This document shows, one piece after another, positions 11,763 to 44,900 of a stretch of DNA of 64,000 nucleotides. Position 1 is the first letter of the stretch; every line of letters starts with the position of its first letter. The notes beneath the pieces are model-generated. The model was given only the letters and a program-made list of their open reading frames with translations. It made no database searches and had not been told where the DNA came from. The translations under genes were made by a program, and so were the position numbers. The DNA is from Diplonema papillatum (lineage: Eukaryota > Euglenozoa > Diplonemea > Diplonemida > Diplonemidae), in contig JAPJBO010000156.1 in NCBI GenBank assembly GCA_030068145.1, positions 124,001-188,000 on the forward strand. Reading direction: 5' to 3'.

Positions 11763-14700
11763 ATGCCTGTGAGCTTTCGCCAGCCTGACTTCGATGCGTG
11801 TCCGAGTGAAATTCACCAGCAGGTAACGAGCATAGCAGAGCGCTACAGGCTCGAAGATGAGTATGTGACCGAGCTTTTCTTTACCAAACTGAAATGTTGA
11901 AGGAAATGAGAAGCTCGTCGCCGCAAACCGTGGCGTTGCAGCAACACCTCTCCGGGGTTCTGCGAGTGAAAGTGTGCCAAGGACGCTGTGGCAAGGAGTA
12001 CCAAGGAAAAAGAAAGGCGCACACACACGAAGCCTCTTTTTGCCAAAATAAATTGAACTCAAAAAAGATCGGTGTTATTTGGGTGTCACGTTATAATCCT
12101 TGAAGTAGGCGACAGTCATCAGCTTGCACTGACTCGCACTGACATCCTGCCATTTGTACATACCGGCCTTTCATGTTCCGTCCGTAAACACAAAATACTC
12201 GACGTAGCTGCTTTGACTCGAATGGAAGGGAGGAAATATAGAGGTAGAGGGGCAAATACAATACAAACACAATCTGTTTCGTTCTTCGCTTGCACCACCG
12301 TGTGTTGTTTTCCCACTCAGGACTTTTGACCTGTTGTGTTTGTGTGATTTGTTCGTGTAGGGGTAGACCCGCATGACCTCACGTCCGCTTAACACGTGGT
12401 TCGGTAGTCACAGCACTTGAGATCCCTTCGGTTCTACGAGGGTCGAAAACATATCAACTGCCCTACCCCCGTTTCTTTTTTTAAACAACTTTTCTTCTTT
12501 CTTACATACTTTGATCATAGTGGCAGCCGCTGCTTAACAACATGAAGTTAGGGCGGACTTGAGGGCGAAGACGTGGTCCCGACTGGTGGCGAGGCGGCCG
12601 GGATTTGAGGGCATACAGAGAGCCGACCTGGAGCGGACGAACTCCTTCTGGAGGATGCGTGAAAGTCCCGCGCACACCGCGAGGCTTATACGTGTAGCGT
12701 TGGCGGGGGGACGTCGCGGATGAGGCAGGCCGGAGCCCAGCTGCAAGCACTGTGGAAGCGGCGACACCGAGGACGAGAAACACGTATTCTGGGACTGCGG
12801 AGCGTACTCGCACATACGGCGACGAGAGGCACATGCCGAGCTGATGGCAGCCAACCGGGCCGACTGGCCCAGATGCACGCTGTAACACGGAGTGGTAGTA
12901 CCCGAGAATGCCCAATTCTCGAGGCGGCTCCAGGAGATGATGGCTGAAATCCTTGCGGAACGGGCTGGGCTCGAAGCACGTGGCTGGGTGGCCAGGAACC
13001 CCACGACCCCCTGGTCGAGAGCGAATGCGATGCCTGCCGAGAAATTTGACCACCCCTTCGCGCGGATTGCCCCGGCATGGACGTGGGAGCGGAACAAGAC
13101 CTGGGGACTACCGACGTTTTATGCGTTGGTAGCGTGGCTGTCGGACATGCAATGGACCGAGAACGGGCAGGTGTCAATGCTGGAGCTTGCGATCGACTTT
13201 GAACTCTTCTCGGGCCTCAGCATGCCGCTGCACGGGAATGCGCTGAAGGGGGTGAGAGAACGGGGAAACGTCCTGCGCTGCATGATGAGCGCGTTGGACA
13301 AGCTGGCGGCACAGCAAGGGCTGGGAAGCTGCATGAGAGGGGAGAGGGTGTGCCCGACGACGTCGCTGTCGTTCATGGGCATCTCGGGGATATCGGGTGT
13401 GCGGCCCTGGCCACGCTTTCGCGAGGCACACACGGGGACGATACTTGAGGAACAAGTGAAAGGAAGCGATGTAGGGACGCAGTGCCCGACGTACCCTGAC
13501 TGGACGATCGGGAGAGCGGCGAGGTGGGCCCTGCCTGCCCCACCACAACTGCACCCAGACCCCGAGCACATGCCCGGTGTCGGTATAGAGAAGGCAATCG
13601 TCACGCGCGACCCATCACAAAGGATAGTGTGAGGCGTGCAGAACACTCGTCCGAAGGGACGCTCCCACGGTAAGAGATCTGCTGCCGGCACCATCGATGG
13701 GCAGCCGATCGCGGTGTGCACAGAGCACAGCACTCCCTACGCTGACGCAGAGGCGACCGGCGGCATGTTGCAGCCGCGGCCACCACCAGTCCAACAAGCC
13801 GAACGTCCAGTCAACTCCCGGACGCAACAAGAAGAAGAGGCCCTCCTCACCCACCCAGGTGGGCGTACAACGGGAAACGCCAGTAGGAAAGCGAGCAGCG
13901 CGAGCGCCGCTCGCAGCAACGAAAAAAGGAGACGGCGACGACCGGACGGGCGACCAAGAGGCCGCCACCAACGCCAGGAACCAGCGAACGACCAGCGCTG
14001 AAGAAGAGGGTGCTCGGCACCCCGAAGGAAGGCCCGATCGCCGGCCGCAAGCGGAAGAAGACGAAGGCGACCACACCCGACTCAGGGGTGCATCGAAGGA
14101 AGAAGAAGGTTCCGAGGGCAAGCAGCTCTCAGAAACGACCGGGGACCACGGGCACGCCAATGCCCTCGAAAGTCAAAAACGGGCACACGTGCCCGCCCTC
14201 GTACTCGCCGACTCAGTCTCTGGAATCGCAAGAAAGCCAAATCCCGCTAGCGCCACAAATGCTCGACCTTGACGACGCAATGGCAGGTGACGACGTCATC
14301 CGATAACCTGACTTATAAGGCAGTGCATGTTAATCCGTGTGGTTCATGTACTTAAAAGAACTCAATGCTTAACAAAATTTGACGTGGGCGGCTTTAGATT
14401 TACATCTGAATGACACCTCAACACAAAACAAGTTGTCGACAACTAACAAGTAAAAGAATAAAACAAAACTACGCAGTTCTTTGTCTGGCAGCATCTCGTC
14501 GAGCATTTCGTTCCAAGCTGGTGCTTATGTAACAATCAACACAGAATCGGTGACGGCGCCTACTCGCGGGTCGTGGCAGCGAAGCACCTTGAGTCCGGTG
14601 AGACACGGGCAATCAAAATTGTGCCGAAGGCTGGTCCCGCGTCGTCGCGTGTGGGACAGTGCCTCGTGGACGGCGCCGAGAGCCAGATTCTGGCGGCGGT

Positions 14701-36841: not shown

Positions 36842-36934
36842 TTGAGTTCTTTTAAGTACATGAACCACGTGGATTAACATGCACTGCCTTGAAAGTCAGG
36901 TTATCGGATGACGTCGTCACCTGTTATTGCGTCG

Positions 36935-39900
36935 TCAAGGTCGAGCATTTGTGGCGCTAGCGGGATTTGGCTTTCTTGCGATTCCAGAGACTGAGTCGGC
37001 GAGTACGAGGGCGGGCACGTGTGCCCGTTTTTCACTTTCGAGGGCATTGGTGTGCCCGTGGTCCCCGGTCGTTTCTGAGAGCTGCTTGCCTTCGGTACCT
37101 TTCTTCCTTCGATGCACCCCTGAGTCGGGTGTGGTCGCCTTCGTCTTCTTCCGCTTGCGGCCGGCGATCGGGCCTTCCTTCGGGGTGCCGAGCACCCTCT
37201 TCTTCAGCGCTGGTCGTTCGCTGGTTCCTGGCGTTGGTGGCGGCCTCTTGGTCGCCCGTCCGGTCGTCGCCGTCTCCTTTTTCGTTGCCGCGAGCGGCGC
37301 TCGCGCCGCTCGCTTTCCTACTGGCGTTTCCCGTTGTACGTCCACCTGGGTGGGTGAGGAGGGCCTCTTCTTCTTGTTGCGTCCGGGGGTTGACTGGACG
37401 TTCGGCTTGTTGGACTGGTGGTGGCCGCGGCTGCAACATGCCGCCGGTCGCCTCTGCGTCAGCGTAGGGAGCCTTTTGCACTCTTGGCAGGTTCCTCTGC
37501 CATGCGTGCGGCAGGCATGATGCCCGCTGCGGCAACACGCCGCCGCCGTCTTGCACTCGCCGCACTTCGTCGTGCTGTGCTCTGTGCACACCGCGATCGG
37601 CTGCCCATCGTTCGCGTGGTGATGGTGCCGGCAGCACATCTCTACCGTGGGAACGTCCCTTCGGACGAGTGCTCTGCACGCCTCACACTTCCCTTTGTGA
37701 TGGGTCGCGCACGTGACGAGTGCCTTCTCTATACCGACACCCGGCATATGCACGGGGTCTGGGTGCAGTTGTGGTGGGGCAGGCAGGGCCCACCTCGCCG
37801 CTCTCCCGATCGTCCAGTCAGGGTACGTCGGGCACTGCGTCCCTACATCGCTTCCTTTCACTTGTTCCTCAAGTATCGTCCCCGTGTGTGCCTCGCGAAA
37901 GCGTGGCCTGGGCCGTACACCCGATATCCCCGAGATGCCCATGAACGACAGCGACGTCGTCGGGCACACCCTCTCCCCTCTCATGCAGCTTCCCAGCCCT
38001 TGCTGTGCCGCCAGCTTGTCCAACGCGCTCATCATGCAGCGCAGGACGTTTCCCCGTTCTCTCACCCCCTTCGGCGCATTCCCGTGCAGCGGCATGCTGA
38101 GGCCCGAGAAGAGTTCAAAGTCGATCGCAAGCTCTAGCATTGACGCCTGCCCGCTCTCGGTCCACTGCATGTCAGACAGCCACGCTACCAACGCATAAAA
38201 CGTCGGTAGTCCCCAGGTCTTGTTTCGCTCCCACGTCCATGCCGGGGCAATCCGCGCAAAGGGGTGGTCAAATTTCTCGGCAGGCATCGCATCCGCTCTC
38301 GACCAGGGGGTCGTGGGGTTCCTGGCTACCCAGCCACGTGCTTCGAGCCCTGCCCGTTCCGCAAGGATTTCAGCCATCATCTCCTGGAGCCGCCTCGATA
38401 AGTGGGCGTTCTCCGGTACAACCACACCATGTTCCAGCGTGCATCGGGGCCACTCGGTTCGGTTGGCCGCCATCAGCCCGGCGTATGCTTCCCGCCGGCG
38501 AATGTGTGAGTATGCGTCGCAGTCCCAGTAGATATGCTGTTCGTTCTCCGTCACGCCGCTCCCACAGTGCTTGCAGCTGGGCGCCTGCGGCTCAGCTCCG
38601 GCCTGCCTCATCCGCGACGTGAACTCCGCCGTGTTCACACCCCCCGCAATCGCGACTCGAATTAGCTTCGCCGTGTGCGCGGAACATTCCCTCGTCTTCC
38701 AGAACGCATTCGTGCGCTCCAAGTCGGCTCTTTCCAGCCCCTGATATCCTGGCCTTCTCGCCATCAGTCGGGCCCACGTCCTCGTTCTCAGGTCCGCCCT
38801 CACTTCGTGCCCCCTCTTCGAGGGCGACGAGGCCAGCGGGTCGAACACTGCACCATTCCGTCGTAGCGTGCGAGATAGGGGCCCAGGCTCCCATATGTGT
38901 CCACACTCCTCCATGCTCCTCATCGCCAGCCCGACTGGGCCGAGGGGTTGGTCCCCCTCGGCGTACCGCCCCCGGATACTCTCCATCAGAGGTAGCAGTC
39001 GCGGCAGCCTCTCGCACGCCGCGTAGAACGCCGTCGTCACCCGGTACGCTAAACACGTACCGGGGTCCGTCAGGTGGCCCTTCTCCTGGAAGTTCAGGAC
39101 CATTTCTCTCGCGCGCTTCGGGTTTGCTCCACCCCAGATCAGACCCATCACCGACGTCGTCAACCGCTTCATCGCCACCTTCGACACCGGCGCGAAGGAG
39201 CAGCCTGATAGCGCTGCCGGCAACACATTCGACTGCACAATACGGACCCGCTTTTCGTACCGGAATGGCGCGTGGCGGAGGCCTTCCGCTAGGGCCGCCG
39301 CCCTCTCTACCCTCTTAGAGTCGGACCTCTCCTTTCTGTTCTTCGCCGTTGAGACTAGGGCCCCCAGACACGTGACGGACTTGCTAAATCGCAGCAGCGC
39401 ATTTCCGCTTCGGAGTCTGAGCGTCGACTGGTGCCTCTGCCTCGTCGAGAATGCGATGGTCTTCTCGAGGTTTAGCTGCATTCCGGTGAGTGTGCAGAAC
39501 TCGTCAACAATGTCGACTCCCTTTTGCAATGCGGCCTCCGACAGCCTGGACAGTAGTGTGGCATCATCCGCGTACGACTTAGGACTCACACCCTCAGCTT
39601 CTTTCTTGACCGCTTTCATCACTACCGACAGCAGGGCATTGATGAGTATGACGGACACAGGGCACCCTTGAAGGATACCGTTGGTCACACTAAACTCCCT
39701 GCCCACCCCTAGCGGCAACTTGAAGCGTCTCGCGAGCAGACTGTAAATCGCCCTCAGCGGCTTGAGAACCCGACCGTGCAGTCCTAAGTCCTCAGCCAAG
39801 CGTAGCACTACCTCTCGCGGGACCATGTCGAAACACTTCCGGAAGTCCAGCGCCACTCCGTAGAGCGGCTCTCCGTCCAGCAAGGCGTCCTCCACCTCGA

Positions 39901-42829
39901 GCCCTATCTCCATCAAGACGTCCTCGATCCGGTGGCCCGGCCGAAAGCCTTTCTGTCCTTCTTCGATCCACCCCTCCTGCCACAGGACAATGTCCGCAAG
40001 CCTGCGGCAGGCCCACAAGCGGTACACGGCGGATGTGACGGTTATCGGCCTCGTGTGCAGCGGGTCTTGGCTCTCATCTTTCGGCACCATCGACACCAGC
40101 GCAGTTGTCATGCTTGCCGGCCAGTCCCCAGTCGCTTCGACCAGGTTCATGACGTCTGCAAGTGCATTCAGCAGGGGGAGCGGCAACTCCCGCAGTTCAG
40201 CCATGCGCCAGCCATCCACCCCTGACGCGCTTTTCTTCGGCTTCTTCCTCAGCAGAATTCGCAGCTCCTCCCCCGTGATTGTTCCGGCTTCCATCAAGTG
40301 TGGGCCGATGTGATCCTGGAACCGATCCCGAAACGGCTCGTACTCCGGCTCTGGCCCGTCCTTGTACTTACGCAGGATAGGGTCCCACGCAGTGTTCAGC
40401 GCCTCGTCCATCTCGTCAACATTTGCAGTCACACCCGCCCCCGTTCGCAACACCCCCGACGGCTCAGCGCGTCCGGCGCAGATGGTTGTCAGACATCGTC
40501 TGCTCGCATCGGCCCTCTCGTTCAGCTTGTCTCGGTACTTCGTAAACCTGGCCGCCGATCCTTCCCTTCCGAGCCTACTCGTCTCTTCCCGCAATGCCGT
40601 GAGAAGCTGCTTCGCCTCCTCATGATCCGGGAATCCTTCTGTCCCTTGGCCACCTTTCATGCACGCCTGTGCCAGCCGTCTGCTGTTCTGCCAGCAACGG
40701 GATACTTCATGCGGAACTGCCTCCGGCCCGCGTCGCTGCGCAAGGTAGCTGCAGATGCGTTCCATCCTGTGGATGGCCTTCCGGAGCCGTAGCTGTCTGC
40801 TGTTCGCCGCCCCCGACCCGTCGCTCGCAGTGCTTGCCGTGATACAGACTCTCTTAGGCGACGTCTTTATCCCCCGGCCGGTACTCCTTCCCCTTTCTTC
40901 CGCAGGGATTCCGAAGGCATCCTGCAAGTACTGCTCACTGACTCGTGACCACTCGAGCCAGGCCTCTTCCACTCGCTGTGCTGCCAGCCGTTCTGCGAAA
41001 TCGGAGTTGGTCAGTCTCTGTACGGCTTCCCTGTTAGCTTCTGTGTCCGAGAGGCCCCACTTGGGTCCCCCCTCGGTAGGGATTTCCCGCGGTACTTTAA
41101 ATCGCCACACGATTTGGCGCAGCGCCGCAATGTCCAGGGTCATTGTCACGAGCCGGTGTCCCGGTACGTTCACCGCGGTGGTGACGCATTGACGGAAAGC
41201 TCCCGTCGTTATTCGGTTGAGGAGTATGCGGTCGATCCTCGTGCCTGTCGTCCGGGCGCTGGTAAAGGTCGGTGGTGGCGGTGTGTCACCGGTACGCGCA
41301 TGGTGCAGTTCCGCTGCGTCGGACCATCCGTTCCTTAGTGCCTTCCGCAGCACAGGGGACCGGTCTTCTTCCGTGTTCAGGTCACCCATCACCATTATGG
41401 GGACGTCACCGAGGCTATCTGCCGCTGCGAAGAGGATCTTCTCCAGCATGTCCTCACGCTCCTCGCTCTCCGCCCTCCCGTTTCCGGAAGGGCAGTAGAC
41501 ATTGAACACGTGCACGAACGTGTTGCCGGCCCCTGTTGCTACTACCGTATGGCTCACTCGGTCCGGGGACCGTATTGCTGCGTGCGAGAGCGCCGTCATC
41601 GTATCGTACGCAGGTATCGGTCTCAGTACTAGAGTGGAGAGCCCCCCGTTCGCGGCGTTCACCGTCGAGCGACTACCGGAGTTTCTACAGAGTCTTCCGG
41701 GAGGCGGCAGGCCCCAGTGGCAGCACCATTTCCGCAGGTATTCCTCCGCCTGCGCCCGTTTGCACGGAAGGAGTGTCACCTCCTGGCAGCAGAGAAGATC
41801 CGCTTCCACCGCGTCGGCCGCTGGGAGATATTGAAGTAAGCTAGTTACGTTCAACGTCGCGAACTTCATCTCCGTGCGGCCGGGGCCCGGGTTCTGTTCG
41901 ATGTCTCCAGCGCTTAACAGCTGCTGTCTAGTAGTTTCCTTAATAGATATAAGAGTTCTTTGGCGATTACACAAGTCAGTACGTGGCGCGGGGCTGAACT
42001 GTTGCTGGGGGGGTGGGGAGGACGCCTGAGGGCGGGGCGGGGGGGGCATGGGGGGAGTTTCTTGCGGGGTGTCCCGGCCTTGCAAACGTTGGGAGGCGGC
42101 CTCGCGCACGGCCCTGTAGGTGAGCGAGACCCGGTCGCGTGCGACATCATCGGGACGAATCCCGTGTGTCCACAGGCTCCTGGCCTCGCCTTCCATGTGG
42201 CACAGTGTGCCGACCGGCAGGGGGGTTCTCACTCTCCGGCTCCCCCTCTCCCACTCCATGACCGTGTCGCTCAAGAGCGATACGGTCGCTACCCTCGGAC
42301 CCAGTTCTCTCTGGTCTTTGTGGGGGTTGATCCCCACTCCCCTCCGGTACCAGTTGGCCAGCAACTGGTCCGGTTCCCACCCGAGACGGTCACGTATGAG
42401 ATCCGCCGCTTCTTTCAGGGGCCCCTCGGGGATACCCCGTTCCAGTCTGACCGGGGGTCCGCCCTGTCGGTAGGCGTGTCCCCACTGCTGGGTCTCTCTG
42501 CTTTGTTCTCCCCCCAGCCTCCTCCAAGTGGCTTTCGGCCCAAGCTCGGGTACTCGGCTCAGTCTGTCCAGAAGATCCCGAGGGATCGTCTGGAAGCTTA
42601 GTCCGGGGATTGCTCCCTCCACCCTGACAGGGCCCCCCCCGCAGGCACGCTGGCCTTTGTGGGGGGATTGTTTGTGCGCTGCGGGTAAATTTCCCGGGCT
42701 AATGAGGCCTGGCGCATTGTGGGAGAGAGGGGGGCAAAAAGAAGAAGAAGAAGAAGAGGGATCGCCACCACCTTCGCCTGCTCCATCGTCGAACTGCGTG
42801 CTGGGACTCACGCGCTGGGCGGCCTGCAC
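36935..42829 (-). CDS. LINE ORF2 polyprotein: AlkB-like oxygenase, 2A, APE endonuclease, reverse transcriptase, Cys/His repeats
   Basis: A 1964-codon frame (numbered from GTG at 42829; no ATG until residue 191). Residues about 85-245 are AlkB-like: NWYRRGVG-INPHKD (His170, Asp172), WTHGI (His222), then RVSLTYR (Arg233, Arg239). Residues 301-316 are a 2A peptide, LLSAGDIEQNPGP. From 321 comes an APE-type endonuclease: ATLNVTSL, CQE (Glu350), MGDLN (482-485), RIDRIL (531-536), PGHR. Reverse transcriptase spans about 865-1130: DFRKCFD, GILQGCPVS, SYADD (Asp1088-1089). A CX2CX9HX4C knuckle (1419-1437) follows, then a conserved-looking LELAIDFE segment near 1565, three tandem Cys/His units (1707-1804) and a basic tail. 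The missing ATG suggests entry by read-through from ORF1. Confidence 0.93.
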   Translation of the reverse strand: MQAAQRVSPSTQFDDGAGEGGGDPSSSSSSFCPPLSHNAPGLISPGNLPAAHKQSPHKGQRACGGGPVRVEGAIPGLSFQTIPRDLLDRLSRVPELGPKATWRRLGGEQSRETQQWGHAYRQGGPPVRLERGIPEGPLKEAADLIRDRLGWEPDQLLANWYRRGVGINPHKDQRELGPRVATVSLLSDTVMEWERGSRRVRTPLPVGTLCHMEGEARSLWTHGIRPDDVARDRVSLTYRAVREAASQRLQGRDTPQETPPMPPPPRPQASSPPPQQQFSPAPRTDLCNRQRTLISIKETTRQQLLSAGDIEQNPGPGRTEMKFATLNVTSLLQYLPAADAVEADLLCCQEVTLLPCKRAQAEEYLRKWCCHWGLPPPGRLCRNSGSRSTVNAANGGLSTLVLRPIPAYDTMTALSHAAIRSPDRVSHTVVATGAGNTFVHVFNVYCPSGNGRAESEEREDMLEKILFAAADSLGDVPIMVMGDLNTEEDRSPVLRKALRNGWSDAAELHHARTGDTPPPPTFTSARTTGTRIDRILLNRITTGAFRQCVTTAVNVPGHRLVTMTLDIAALRQIVWRFKVPREIPTEGGPKWGLSDTEANREAVQRLTNSDFAERLAAQRVEEAWLEWSRVSEQYLQDAFGIPAEERGRSTGRGIKTSPKRVCITASTASDGSGAANSRQLRLRKAIHRMERICSYLAQRRGPEAVPHEVSRCWQNSRRLAQACMKGGQGTEGFPDHEEAKQLLTALREETSRLGREGSAARFTKYRDKLNERADASRRCLTTICAGRAEPSGVLRTGAGVTANVDEMDEALNTAWDPILRKYKDGPEPEYEPFRDRFQDHIGPHLMEAGTITGEELRILLRKKPKKSASGVDGWRMAELRELPLPLLNALADVMNLVEATGDWPASMTTALVSMVPKDESQDPLHTRPITVTSAVYRLWACRRLADIVLWQEGWIEEGQKGFRPGHRIEDVLMEIGLEVEDALLDGEPLYGVALDFRKCFDMVPREVVLRLAEDLGLHGRVLKPLRAIYSLLARRFKLPLGVGREFSVTNGILQGCPVSVILINALLSVVMKAVKKEAEGVSPKSYADDATLLSRLSEAALQKGVDIVDEFCTLTGMQLNLEKTIAFSTRQRHQSTLRLRSGNALLRFSKSVTCLGALVSTAKNRKERSDSKRVERAAALAEGLRHAPFRYEKRVRIVQSNVLPAALSGCSFAPVSKVAMKRLTTSVMGLIWGGANPKRAREMVLNFQEKGHLTDPGTCLAYRVTTAFYAACERLPRLLPLMESIRGRYAEGDQPLGPVGLAMRSMEECGHIWEPGPLSRTLRRNGAVFDPLASSPSKRGHEVRADLRTRTWARLMARRPGYQGLERADLERTNAFWKTRECSAHTAKLIRVAIAGGVNTAEFTSRMRQAGAEPQAPSCKHCGSGVTENEQHIYWDCDAYSHIRRREAYAGLMAANRTEWPRCTLEHGVVVPENAHLSRRLQEMMAEILAERAGLEARGWVARNPTTPWSRADAMPAEKFDHPFARIAPAWTWERNKTWGLPTFYALVAWLSDMQWTESGQASMLELAIDFELFSGLSMPLHGNAPKGVRERGNVLRCMMSALDKLAAQQGLGSCMRGERVCPTTSLSFMGISGISGVRPRPRFREAHTGTILEEQVKGSDVGTQCPTYPDWTIGRAARWALPAPPQLHPDPVHMPGVGIEKALVTCATHHKGKCEACRALVRRDVPTVEMCCRHHHHANDGQPIAVCTEHSTTKCGECKTAAACCRSGHHACRTHGRGTCQECKRLPTLTQRRPAACCSRGHHQSNKPNVQSTPGRNKKKRPSSPTQVDVQRETPVGKRAARAPLAATKKETATTGRATKRPPPTPGTSERPALKKRVLGTPKEGPIAGRKRKKTKATTPDSGVHRRKKGTEGKQLSETTGDHGHTNALESEKRAHVPALVLADSVSGIARKPNPASATNARP
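41882..41929 (-). promoter_or_regulatory. 2A ribosome-skipping peptide inside LINE ORF2
   Basis: Encodes RQQLLSAGDIEQNPGP. D-I-E-x-N-P-G-P is the complete 2A consensus, and the preceding LLxxAG matches well-known 2A peptides. At such sites the ribosome fails to link Gly to the final Pro and continues, releasing the upstream protein. Here the break would fall between the AlkB-like part and the endonuclease, which begins five residues later. Confidence 0.9.
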
Positions 42830-42880
42830 CGGCCTGGCGGGGCCACAACTGGCGCCGGGGACGGGTCGCGGTGGCAGTCA
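42830..42880 (-). promoter_or_regulatory. Candidate TGA read-through site joining ORF1 and ORF2
   Basis: ORF1 ends at TGA (42878-42880). The next 16 codons (CTG CCA CCG ...) are in the same frame as ORF2 and open. TGA followed by CT is a known leaky context. ORF2 has no ATG ahead of its oxygenase core, so read-through is the simplest route to its expression. Confidence 0.6.
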
Positions 42881-44737
42881 ACCCGCACACGCCTTGCACG
42901 CGCCGACGTTGCAGCCCTCGCATGTCGTGCGGATCTGGCCCTTCGCCTTCTTCTTCCCGCATAGGGCGCAGGAGAAACCGGCGGTGGCCTTCGCCGGGCT
43001 CCCGAAGGCGTGGACGTGCCCGCCCGCCTCTGCACCGTCCATTGGGACATCGTCCCCAGCGGGTTCCGGCCCGTCCGCTGCCGGCTCCGGCGTCTTCCTC
43101 TTCTTCTGTCCGGCCGCGTCCGCTGGCGGGGCCGCCGGCTGCGGTAGCTCGTCCACCTCCGCCGCCGGCAGCCGCATCCGCCGCTTCCCGCTGGGGGCGG
43201 CAGCGAGCCGCCTGCGCCGCTCCCTCGGCAGCTCACCTCCGTCGTACGGGTTTACCCGGAGGTCGGGTGCCCCCTCCCGCTGCAGCACCCTGAAGGGAGG
43301 GTCGGCCGCCGACGTCACCACGCAAACCCGGGCCCCACTTCGCAGGAACGACGTGGCGACGTCGACCTGCCAGCCGGCCTCCCGCAGGACGTACTCGACG
43401 TCCGCCTCGTGCTCCCGCGGCGTCGCACCCACCACGAGGAAGCGCGGCTTCGACTCGAGGGGGGCAGCAGCGTGTTCGGCGGCCGCCGCACGCACCTCCT
43501 CCAGCACAGCGCCGCTGCGTGCGCGCACGAGGAGGCGGCTGCCCGTGAGCACGAGACCGGCTGCCGCCGCGCCTGCCCGCTCAGCTACCGCCAGCGCGAC
43601 CGCCCTCGTGACCCCCTTTTGCAGGGCGACCACCGGCATGGCGTCCCGGCAGGCCTTCTCCGTCGACCGCCAGAATCCGCCGTCCCGGCCGGAGCTGGCC
43701 AGGATCGCTTCGGCCTGCGCGCGGGGCACCCGCACGACCAGCTCGCGCCTCCCCTGCTGCGACGACACGCCCCACATGGCGTCGTCGGGGACGCGGACCT
43801 CCGTCTTCAGGGCCGTCTTGACAGCCCTCCGGCACAGGCGAGTCAGGGCCGTGCGCGGGTCCCTCTCGACGCACTCCCAGGTCTCCGGCGAGGCGTGCTT
43901 CCTGGCCACGACGAAGGCCAGTACCGTCGTCGCGGCGTTCGGCTTCACCGCGCTGACGGGCATCTTCTGGACCTTCACCTGGCCCCGCTGGCATACCGGC
44001 CCGCCGCCCGCCCACAGGTACATATCCTGTACCCGCCCGCCTTCCAGCAGCACTGGGCCCCGGCGTGCGTCGTCGAAGGCCTCCCGGCACAGCACGCCGA
44101 GGCGCACCCGCTTCCCGTCGCGCTCTGCGACGTCCACCGCATCTGCTGCGGGACCCTTCGCTTCTTCGGCTGCGGCGGCGCTCGGGGCGACCCAGAGGCC
44201 AGCTTCGACAGCTTCGAAGTCGGGGGAGGGGAGTACCGGCGCGTCCCAGTCGGCGGCGTCGATTTTACCGGGTGGCGGGGGCCGCCTGGTCACTTCTGCC
44301 CAGGTGGGCGCGTACCCCTGCCGGGGCCGCTGTTGTGGTTGTTGCTGCTCCTGCGGGCGGCGCTGCTGCGTTTGCTGTTGCTGTTGCTGTTGCGGTTGCG
44401 GTTGTTGCTGCCCCTGCGGGCGGCGCTGCTGCGTTTGCCGTTGCTGTTGCTGCTGCTGTTGCGGTTGCGGTTGCTGCTGCGGTTGCTGCTGCTTCGGTTG
44501 CTGCCGCTGCTGCCTCGGCTGCTGCTGCTGCCTCGGTTGCTGCTGCTGCTGCTTCGGTTGCTGCTGTTGCTGCAGTGGCGGCCGTTGTTGCGCCGGCTCC
44601 CCGCTGTTCGCCTCGATCTGACGCCGGAGCAGCGTCGTGGCGACGTCGAGGATGCCGAAAACGGCATCCAGCTGGTCGCGGTTGGCGCGTTCCGCCATCC
44701 CGCGCGCTTTCTGGATCAGGGCGTTAATCCTGTCCAT
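42878..44737 (-). CDS. LINE ORF1, Gln-rich nucleic-acid-binding protein
   Basis: A 619-residue protein starting MDRINALIQKARGMAERA. It has a short helical N-terminus, a strongly Gln/Pro-rich segment encoded by imperfect CAG/CAA repeats (about residues 48-145), and a central region with Arg/Ala-rich sequence. The end is Cys-rich (CALCGKKKAKGQ, then TTCEGCNVGACKACAG), spaced like a zinc-binding module. ORF1 proteins of LINEs bind element RNA and form particles; that role is inferred here, since no RRM or CCHC set is visible. The stop is TGA at 42878-42880 followed by CTG, and the frame stays open straight into ORF2. Confidence 0.85.
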   Translation of the reverse strand: MDRINALIQKARGMAERANRDQLDAVFGILDVATTLLRRQIEANSGEPAQQRPPLQQQQQPKQQQQQPRQQQQPRQQRQQPKQQQPQQQPQPQQQQQQQRQTQQRRPQGQQQPQPQQQQQQQTQQRRPQEQQQPQQRPRQGYAPTWAEVTRRPPPPGKIDAADWDAPVLPSPDFEAVEAGLWVAPSAAAAEEAKGPAADAVDVAERDGKRVRLGVLCREAFDDARRGPVLLEGGRVQDMYLWAGGGPVCQRGQVKVQKMPVSAVKPNAATTVLAFVVARKHASPETWECVERDPRTALTRLCRRAVKTALKTEVRVPDDAMWGVSSQQGRRELVVRVPRAQAEAILASSGRDGGFWRSTEKACRDAMPVVALQKGVTRAVALAVAERAGAAAAGLVLTGSRLLVRARSGAVLEEVRAAAAEHAAAPLESKPRFLVVGATPREHEADVEYVLREAGWQVDVATSFLRSGARVCVVTSAADPPFRVLQREGAPDLRVNPYDGGELPRERRRRLAAAPSGKRRMRLPAAEVDELPQPAAPPADAAGQKKRKTPEPAADGPEPAGDDVPMDGAEAGGHVHAFGSPAKATAGFSCALCGKKKAKGQIRTTCEGCNVGACKACAG

Positions 44738-44890
44738 TTTGACGGAGCTACGGGTAGCCCGCGTTCTTTTCGCGGATGGGTACCGCTGTTGTGTTATGGA
44801 GGGTGTTTGTCCTGGATGAATTCCGGGCGCACTTTACCGGCCGCGTGAGCAGCCAATAAAGTACAGAAACTGTAGCTTTTAAATCGTTGG

Positions 44891-44900
44891 TTTCTTAGTA
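44891..44900 (-). repeat. Target-site duplication, 5' side of full-length LINE
   Basis: TTTCTTAGTA on the plus strand, identical to 36832-36841. Confidence 0.92.

Follow-up and report, generated by a model that had tools for sequence, protein, structure and literature searches.

An AlkB-type oxygenase domain between an in-frame UGA, a candidate readthrough site, and a 2A peptide in a LINE of Diplonema papillatum

The element and its domains

We analysed a window of 64,000 nucleotides from the euglenozoan Diplonema papillatum (assembly GCA_030068145.1, contig JAPJBO010000156.1, positions 124,001 to 188,000), in which a full-length long interspersed nuclear element (LINE) lies on the minus strand (Table 1). 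An initial annotation, made from the letters alone, had placed an AlkB-like oxygenase and a 2A peptide ahead of the endonuclease (EN) and the reverse transcriptase (RT) in the second open reading frame (ORF2) of this element. The order was confirmed: 2OG-FeII_Oxy_2, 2A, Exo_endo_phos and RVT_1 followed each other in one frame, with all three Pfam domains above cut-off and a canonical 2A sequence between AlkB and EN. Of the ends proposed at that time, 36842 is the exact 3' end of the element, while 42829 falls on a GTG codon, not an AUG, and the element extends to 44891. ORF1 gave no Pfam match above cut-off and ORF2 no match to RNase H in Pfam; NCBIfam yielded nothing above cut-off, and an Rfam search on three copies gave 0 matches. 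No repeat joining the two ends was found in a 10-kb self-comparison of the window region, which was not run as a search for long terminal repeats (LTRs). 5'-truncated copies are present in the genome, alongside the target-site duplication at the window copy. We concluded that the element is an autonomous APE-type LINE. Residue numbers refer to the stop-to-stop ORF2 unless stated otherwise, and published papers are cited from the portions of their text that were available.

The Pfam profile PF13532 matched ORF2 residues 159-255 with an E-value of 6.6e-12 and 46.5 bits, above the cut-off of 31.2; this is the 2OG-FeII_Oxy_2 profile against which the initial annotation had suggested a check. The HxD...H triad and the RxxxxxR motif are present in the window AlkB. 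The residues first reported as HxD 170-172, His222 and Arg233/239 are 186-188, 238 and 249/255 in the stop-to-stop frame, the earlier numbering starting 16 codons in, and HxD, H and R..R were invariant in 6/6 aligned mobile-element AlkBs. When the AlkB segment was used as a single-sequence query, the best sequence match in the PDB was human ALKBH8 (E 1.3e-6). A profile of the six mobile-element AlkBs again returned ALKBH8 first (1.1e-15), followed by S. pombe P8A3.02c, chains of a DNA N6-methyladenine demethylase, ALKBH3, ALKBH6, ALKBH2 and ALKBH5. A chance match was rejected, as the 2A core pattern and the AlkB-2A segment recur in the genome (below). When proteins were searched with only the AlkB domain as query, none of 315 candidates reached E 1e-5.

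The 2A peptide of the window carries DIEQNPGP and fits the published motif D(V/I)ExNPGP; 2A sequences in LINEs are known (PMC4981915), and PMC12846837 cites a paper on them. The genome scanned comprised 271 Mb in 2,910 contigs, the published assembly being approx. 280 Mb (PMC10161547). The exact 2A core pattern was found at 54 sites (30 forward, 24 reverse), and its reversed control at 0. A query spanning AlkB and 2A gave 775 candidates, 135 of which were scored; some of the scored matches were partial, and EN-RT was not confirmed copy by copy. With 134 of the 135 free of stops inside the match, the pair recurs in related copies. These matches fell at approx. 100, 85 and 76% identity, many of them in frames near 2,000 codons. 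In protein searches, ORF2 residues 330-1250 retrieved 41 proteins, the best several being from D. papillatum (91-100% identical, with 46-99% of the query covered), and the AlkB-2A query retrieved three, all from D. papillatum (98, 71 and 64% identity). Scans with a degenerate pattern gave 28 matches in bacterial/archaeal genomes and 10 in viral contigs, none confirmed. Relatives of the element that lack AlkB also have a 2A or 2A-like motif ahead of EN.

Table 1. Features of the LINE in the window, in window coordinates.
Feature	Positions	Strand	Remarks
Full-length LINE copy	36842..44891	minus	8,050 bp; 5' spliced leader, flanking TACTAAGAA, 3' end TTAAAAGAACTCAA common to other copies
5' target-site duplication TACTAAGAA	44892..44900	minus	9 bp
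3' target-site duplication TACTAAGAA	36833..36841	minus	9 bp
Spliced leader at 5' end	44854..44891	minus	38 nt
ORF1	42878..44737	minus	619 aa; Gln-rich N-terminus, conserved middle, C-terminal CxxC...C.C..C zinc-finger-like motif
In-frame UGA then CUG, proposed readthrough site	42878..42880	minus	UGA-CUN in families A-H
Linker, open in ORF2 frame, without in-frame AUG	42611..42877	minus	
AlkB-type 2-oxoglutarate/Fe(II) oxygenase domain	42092..42610	minus	PF13532
HKD metal ligands	42314..42322	minus	residues 186-188
2A peptide KETTRQQLLSAGDIEQNPGP	41882..41941	minus	residues 313-332; published D(V/I)ExNPGP motif
APE-type endonuclease (Exo_endo_phos)	41213..41854	minus	PF03372; EN residues 342-555; above Pfam cut-off
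Reverse transcriptase (RVT_1)	39446..40060	minus	PF00078; residues 940-1144; above Pfam cut-off
Whole readthrough frame	36935..42877	minus	1,980 codons plus stop

The UGA junction and the LINE families

LINE families were labelled A (that of the window) to H, with B read at L031, C at L030 and D at L029; A-D carry AlkB, and E-H have no AlkB between the UGA and the 2A in the stretches read. Four loci were left out of the family count: L047 and L048, whose junction lacks the UGA, and L038 and L032, two copies that do not include the junction. In family A the zinc-finger-like end of ORF1 is followed by a UGA and then by the AlkB frame. ORF1 and the AlkB-2A-EN-RT frame stand in the same phase with one UGA between them, and likewise in B, C and D. 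The codon after the UGA is CUG in A, CUC in B, CUA in C and CUG in D, and among the families without AlkB CUC in E, CUA in F, CUG in G and CUG in H; B and E were counted as non-independent because a 5' linker is common to both. UGA CUA is a high-readthrough consensus in human, and a C after the UGA promotes readthrough (PMC4359377, PMC12233894). Among the 21 family-A copies studied, UGA-CUG was found in 14/14 that keep the junction, the other 7 being truncated or interrupted there. In family G, for which the junction DNA was read in one copy (L045), exactly one stop, a TGA, was present in 60/60 listed matches spanning the full 226-aa junction query, a count that need not mean the junction TGA (in L047 it lies elsewhere). 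The distance from the UGA to the 2A is 154 codons in E and 101 in F, where the stretch read ends within the 2A, just past DIEEN. G has a pair of 2A-like GDVHPNPGP motifs, the nearer one 22 codons from the UGA. A reading of the UGA as selenocysteine was rejected by inference, as the adjoining residues are not conserved; no search for a selenocysteine insertion sequence was made.

According to the initial annotation, the element makes its oxygenase as a free protein, with ORF2 read as a frame of its own. No AUG ahead of AlkB is conserved among the families, and neither B, C nor the window copy has an in-frame AUG before HxD; what is conserved after ORF1 is the in-phase UGA-CUN. Free AlkB as the default product was therefore rejected; ahead of the 2A, ORF1p and AlkB are predicted to form a single fused protein. 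Alignment gaps in the linker preserve the frame, with run lengths divisible by 3 in 5/5 cases between A and C (starting 28 nt past the UGA) and in 2/2 between C and D.

The ratio of nonsynonymous to synonymous substitution rates (dN/dS, NG86) between A, C and D was 0.17-0.24 for AlkB, 0.16-0.17 for EN, 0.04-0.07 for RT (residues 901-1250) and 0.14-0.34 for the 2A, the latter over 20 codons only. Judged by these ratios, AlkB is under purifying selection between the three families. The ORF1 proteins of A and C share 84% over 390 residues, those of B and D 34%, and B and D each approx. 25% with A; clear nucleotide similarity of the ORF1 ends compared in A-D was seen only between A and C. The ORF2 of B and C are nearly identical, while their ORF1 are divergent, so ORF1 was exchanged between families and the junction kept. 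As AlkB is absent from E-H, it was probably gained in one LINE subgroup, and since E-H share the layout minus AlkB, it probably entered a pre-existing linker between the readthrough site and the 2A.

Gene annotation misreads the element. Gene model P0018 omits 12 codons including the UGA, and gene model P0004 begins at the endonuclease and drops AlkB and 2A.

Candidate expression and role of the AlkB domain

A genome search with PF13532 gave 250 candidates, of which 150 were scored, and placed AlkB in other long frames as well. At L034 and L035 it precedes Helitron_like_N, which scored 130 and 132 bits against a cut-off of 28.9, in Helitron-type transposases. At L036 it is N-terminal to an OTU-like match (20.7 bits, below the cut-off of 23.3), with an RT match of 28.1, below its cut-off of 29.6 and incomplete because the locus ends within it. 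The identity to the window AlkB was 80% for L036 and 43-45% for the Helitron-type domains. The latter frames have in-frame Met codons just ahead of the domain and thus need no readthrough. In an unrooted tree of 16 rows, displayed with midpoint rooting, the AlkBs of the LINE, the Helitron-type and the AlkB-OTU-RT elements split from the sampled host AlkBs with a support of 0.96; the host rows were single genomic stretches rather than complete genes, and row HOST_L041, in a wrong frame, was disregarded. Helitron elements have no RNA genome.

Gene models P0002 and P0003 stand alongside L036 as an AlkB-OTU-RT element, P0003 having a long N-terminal part without Pfam match joined to a closely related AlkB. 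P0001 is an annotated host protein ending in a LINE-like AlkB (98% identity over half of the query); the gene model is chimeric or else an exon was captured, and some of the published dozen Diplonema AlkB genes may be of the same kind.

We consider it fairly probable, from the frame and the context of the stop, that the LINE makes its proteins from one frame by two successive recoding steps, UGA readthrough and 2A skipping. Most ribosomes would halt at the UGA and release ORF1p alone, and a minority would read through it to give ORF1p-linker-AlkB. Skipping at the 2A would then free a separate EN-RT starting with proline. Readthrough followed by skipping would leave AlkB tethered to ORF1p, not free. 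It would thus be carried into the LINE ribonucleoprotein on a sub-stoichiometric share of the ORF1p molecules and in amounts equimolar to EN-RT. We infer, with less confidence, that AlkB may be an active oxygenase removing a methyl or alkyl group from the nucleic acid of the element. Such an enzyme could oxidatively strip the group from the element mRNA, the cDNA or the target DNA and so evade host marking or silencing, and the related modules could serve the Helitron-type and AlkB-OTU-RT elements of the same genome. The presence of AlkB in a LINE, a Helitron-type and a third element of one host suggests that nucleic-acid methylation may be a defence to overcome. As families with and without AlkB occur in one genome, an effect of AlkB on silencing is directly testable. 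The two parts taken together, that serial UGA-CUN readthrough and 2A skipping in this LINE clade determine the relative amounts of ORF1p, ORF1p-AlkB and EN-RT and that one AlkB module has been traded among the three kinds of element as a shared counter-defence stripping a host methyl mark, are put forward as a tentative proposal that may well not hold in full. The layout would be a translation strategy of LINEs, and it predicts the fusion, not a free enzyme.

Several observations weigh against the reading with two recoding steps and an active AlkB. In-frame AUG codons occur 48 nt after the UGA in 4/13 family-A copies (GTG in the window copy) and at +93 in D. The family-G copy C669 spans the junction without any stop, and the junction UGA is missing from L047, a decayed copy with TTG at the site, and from L048, which is apparently 5'-truncated. 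Over all six family pairs only 17/26 linker gap runs are multiples of 3; the frame-breaking runs (A-D, A-B, D-B and C-B) lie in parts of the 5' linkers without clear homology. The linker is under weak constraint, its dN/dS among A, C and D being 0.60-0.80, and for AlkB of B and C the ratio was 1.01, on 8 changes only, too few to weigh. CUA, whose third base is the best one in human, follows the UGA in only 2/8 families. A shared 3' stem-loop after the UGA was not found, the z-score being approx. -3 in B and -2.8 at +15 in D, with none near the stop in A or C. The DVHPNPGP of G and H does not conform to the published 2A motif. The AlphaFold model, built on a 3-row alignment, reached a mean predicted local distance difference test score (pLDDT) of 39.6, too poor for a test of the fold, which therefore rests on profiles.

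A separate translation of ORF2, by reinitiation after ORF1, from a near-cognate start or from the AUG 48 nt past the UGA, would yield a free AlkB and would account for the AUG codons in family A and D. We regard it as unlikely, because B and C have no such codon before HxD, because A and C preserve the frame as early as 28 nt past the UGA, a constraint that a later start would not call for, and because UGA-CUN recurs in 8 families. If ORF2 were instead translated from a second trans-spliced mRNA, the acceptor would lie at the polypyrimidine tract of the linker; a pyrimidine-rich tract is present in the linkers of A, B, C and D, and the host does trans-splice, its spliced leaders being mentioned in the genome paper (PMC10161547). 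This route into ORF2 is very unlikely and was rejected, as A, B and C all lack an in-frame AUG from the tract up to HxD, the first one in A being residue 207, inside the AlkB core.

As to the role of the domain, AlkB might repair the alkylated RNA template of the LINE. The same subfamily is found on Helitron-type transposases, which favours a function that DNA and RNA elements could both use, and we accordingly prefer a demethylase or anti-silencing role, as the distribution of the domain would suggest, and hold repair of an RNA genome to be unlikely. Such repair has a precedent in plant RNA viruses, whose AlkBs demethylate RNA in vitro and are proposed to keep genome integrity (PMC9289625). 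An ALKBH8-like hydroxylation of tRNA wobble uridines could tune host decoding and perhaps favour the element's own UGA readthrough, and ALKBH8 is indeed the nearest solved structure by profile. One paper, by its title, reportedly ties Alkbh8 to the expression of selenocysteine proteins. This role is nevertheless quite improbable, as UGA-CUN is also found in E-H, without AlkB in the stretches read, and as the Helitron-type AlkB frames have their own Met codons. A functionless captured passenger would agree with the probable gain of AlkB in one LINE subgroup and with the ratio between B and C. It is extremely unlikely in view of the low dN/dS between A, C and D, the catalytic residues invariant in all six aligned domains and the near-complete lack of stops among the scored matches.

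Related systems and the ends of the element

The closest precedent for the LINE is AlkB in orchid Ty3/Gypsy elements. Those of Phalaenopsis carry an AlkB ORF with N6-methyladenosine demethylase activity in vitro and are likewise retroelements with a captured AlkB domain; they are LTR elements in another host kingdom, with AlkB in an additional ORF, and neither 2A nor readthrough is mentioned in the available text (PMC9289625). Plant RNA virus AlkBs were also captured by a selfish RNA-based element, but they are parts of virus proteins, whereas here AlkB would extend ORF1p of a LINE (PMC9289625). The L1Tc/ingi elements of trypanosomatids are, like ours, euglenozoan LINEs with APE-type EN and RT, and 2A-like sequences are reported in T. 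cruzi; they are described as having a poly(A) tail, RNase H and Pr77 (PMC12278014, PMC4981915). The Diplonema LINE differs from them in the 5' spliced leader, the ORF1-UGA-AlkB layout and the lack of an RNase H match in ORF2. Heras 2006 is reportedly a study on the L1Tc/ingi LINEs. With ALKBH8 and other PF13532 homologues the Diplonema domain shares the profile match and the catalytic set HxD...H...R, and it differs in that it sits in a mobile-element polyprotein, apart from the sampled host AlkBs in the tree. The human readthrough genes LDHB and AQP4 (UGA CUA) also have UGA followed by CU; they are cellular, and the LDHB extension is 18 nt, as against 1,980 codons in the LINE (PMC4359377).

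The Diplonema genome paper mentions LINE-1 ORFs, 5-methylcytosine methyltransferase homologues and a dozen AlkB-type genes, and in its available text no link between AlkB and a LINE was found (PMC10161547). In the literature searched on AlkB/2-oxoglutarate oxygenases with retrotransposons, LINEs, Helitrons and transposons we found no report of AlkB, 2A and stop-codon readthrough joined in a LINE. The UGA-plus-2A layout was likewise not found for LINEs in the literature searched on readthrough or 2A in non-LTR elements, nor in that on D. papillatum retrotransposons.

The family-A copies are mostly approx. 98-99% identical over up to 8 kb, and 11 of the 21 studied reach the 5' end. All 11 start with the 38-nt spliced leader, one without its first bases, and no second partial leader was seen at these 5' ends. 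The leader is joined to GCTGCTCACG in 10 of them and to GACAAACACC in one (L014), where GACAAACACC directly follows an ATCCAG present in other copies, as expected from splicing at a second acceptor. The last 30 nt of the leader plus GTA occurred 221 times in the genome, many of the listed sites lying in tandem arrays, as expected of spliced leader RNA genes, and the end of the leader was joined to GCTGCTCACGCGGCCGG at 65 genome sites. The leader of the host stands at the 5' end of full-length copies even though the acceptor AG upstream of the splice should be missing from any retrocopy of a trans-spliced mRNA.

The 3' flanks were readable in 21 copies, and in 17 of them the element was followed by TGCTTAAC (12) or TGCTAAAC (5). 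The motif TGCTWAAC, with ACGTGGGC shortly after, recurs at insertions within related repeats (flanks of L011, L012, L013, L014, L019 and L025). Positions 12541-14376 of the window contain another fragment, from a related LINE and truncated at its 5' end (88.6 and 96.9% identity), which is preceded by GGCAGCCGCTGCTTAAC, a motif found at other insertion sites too.

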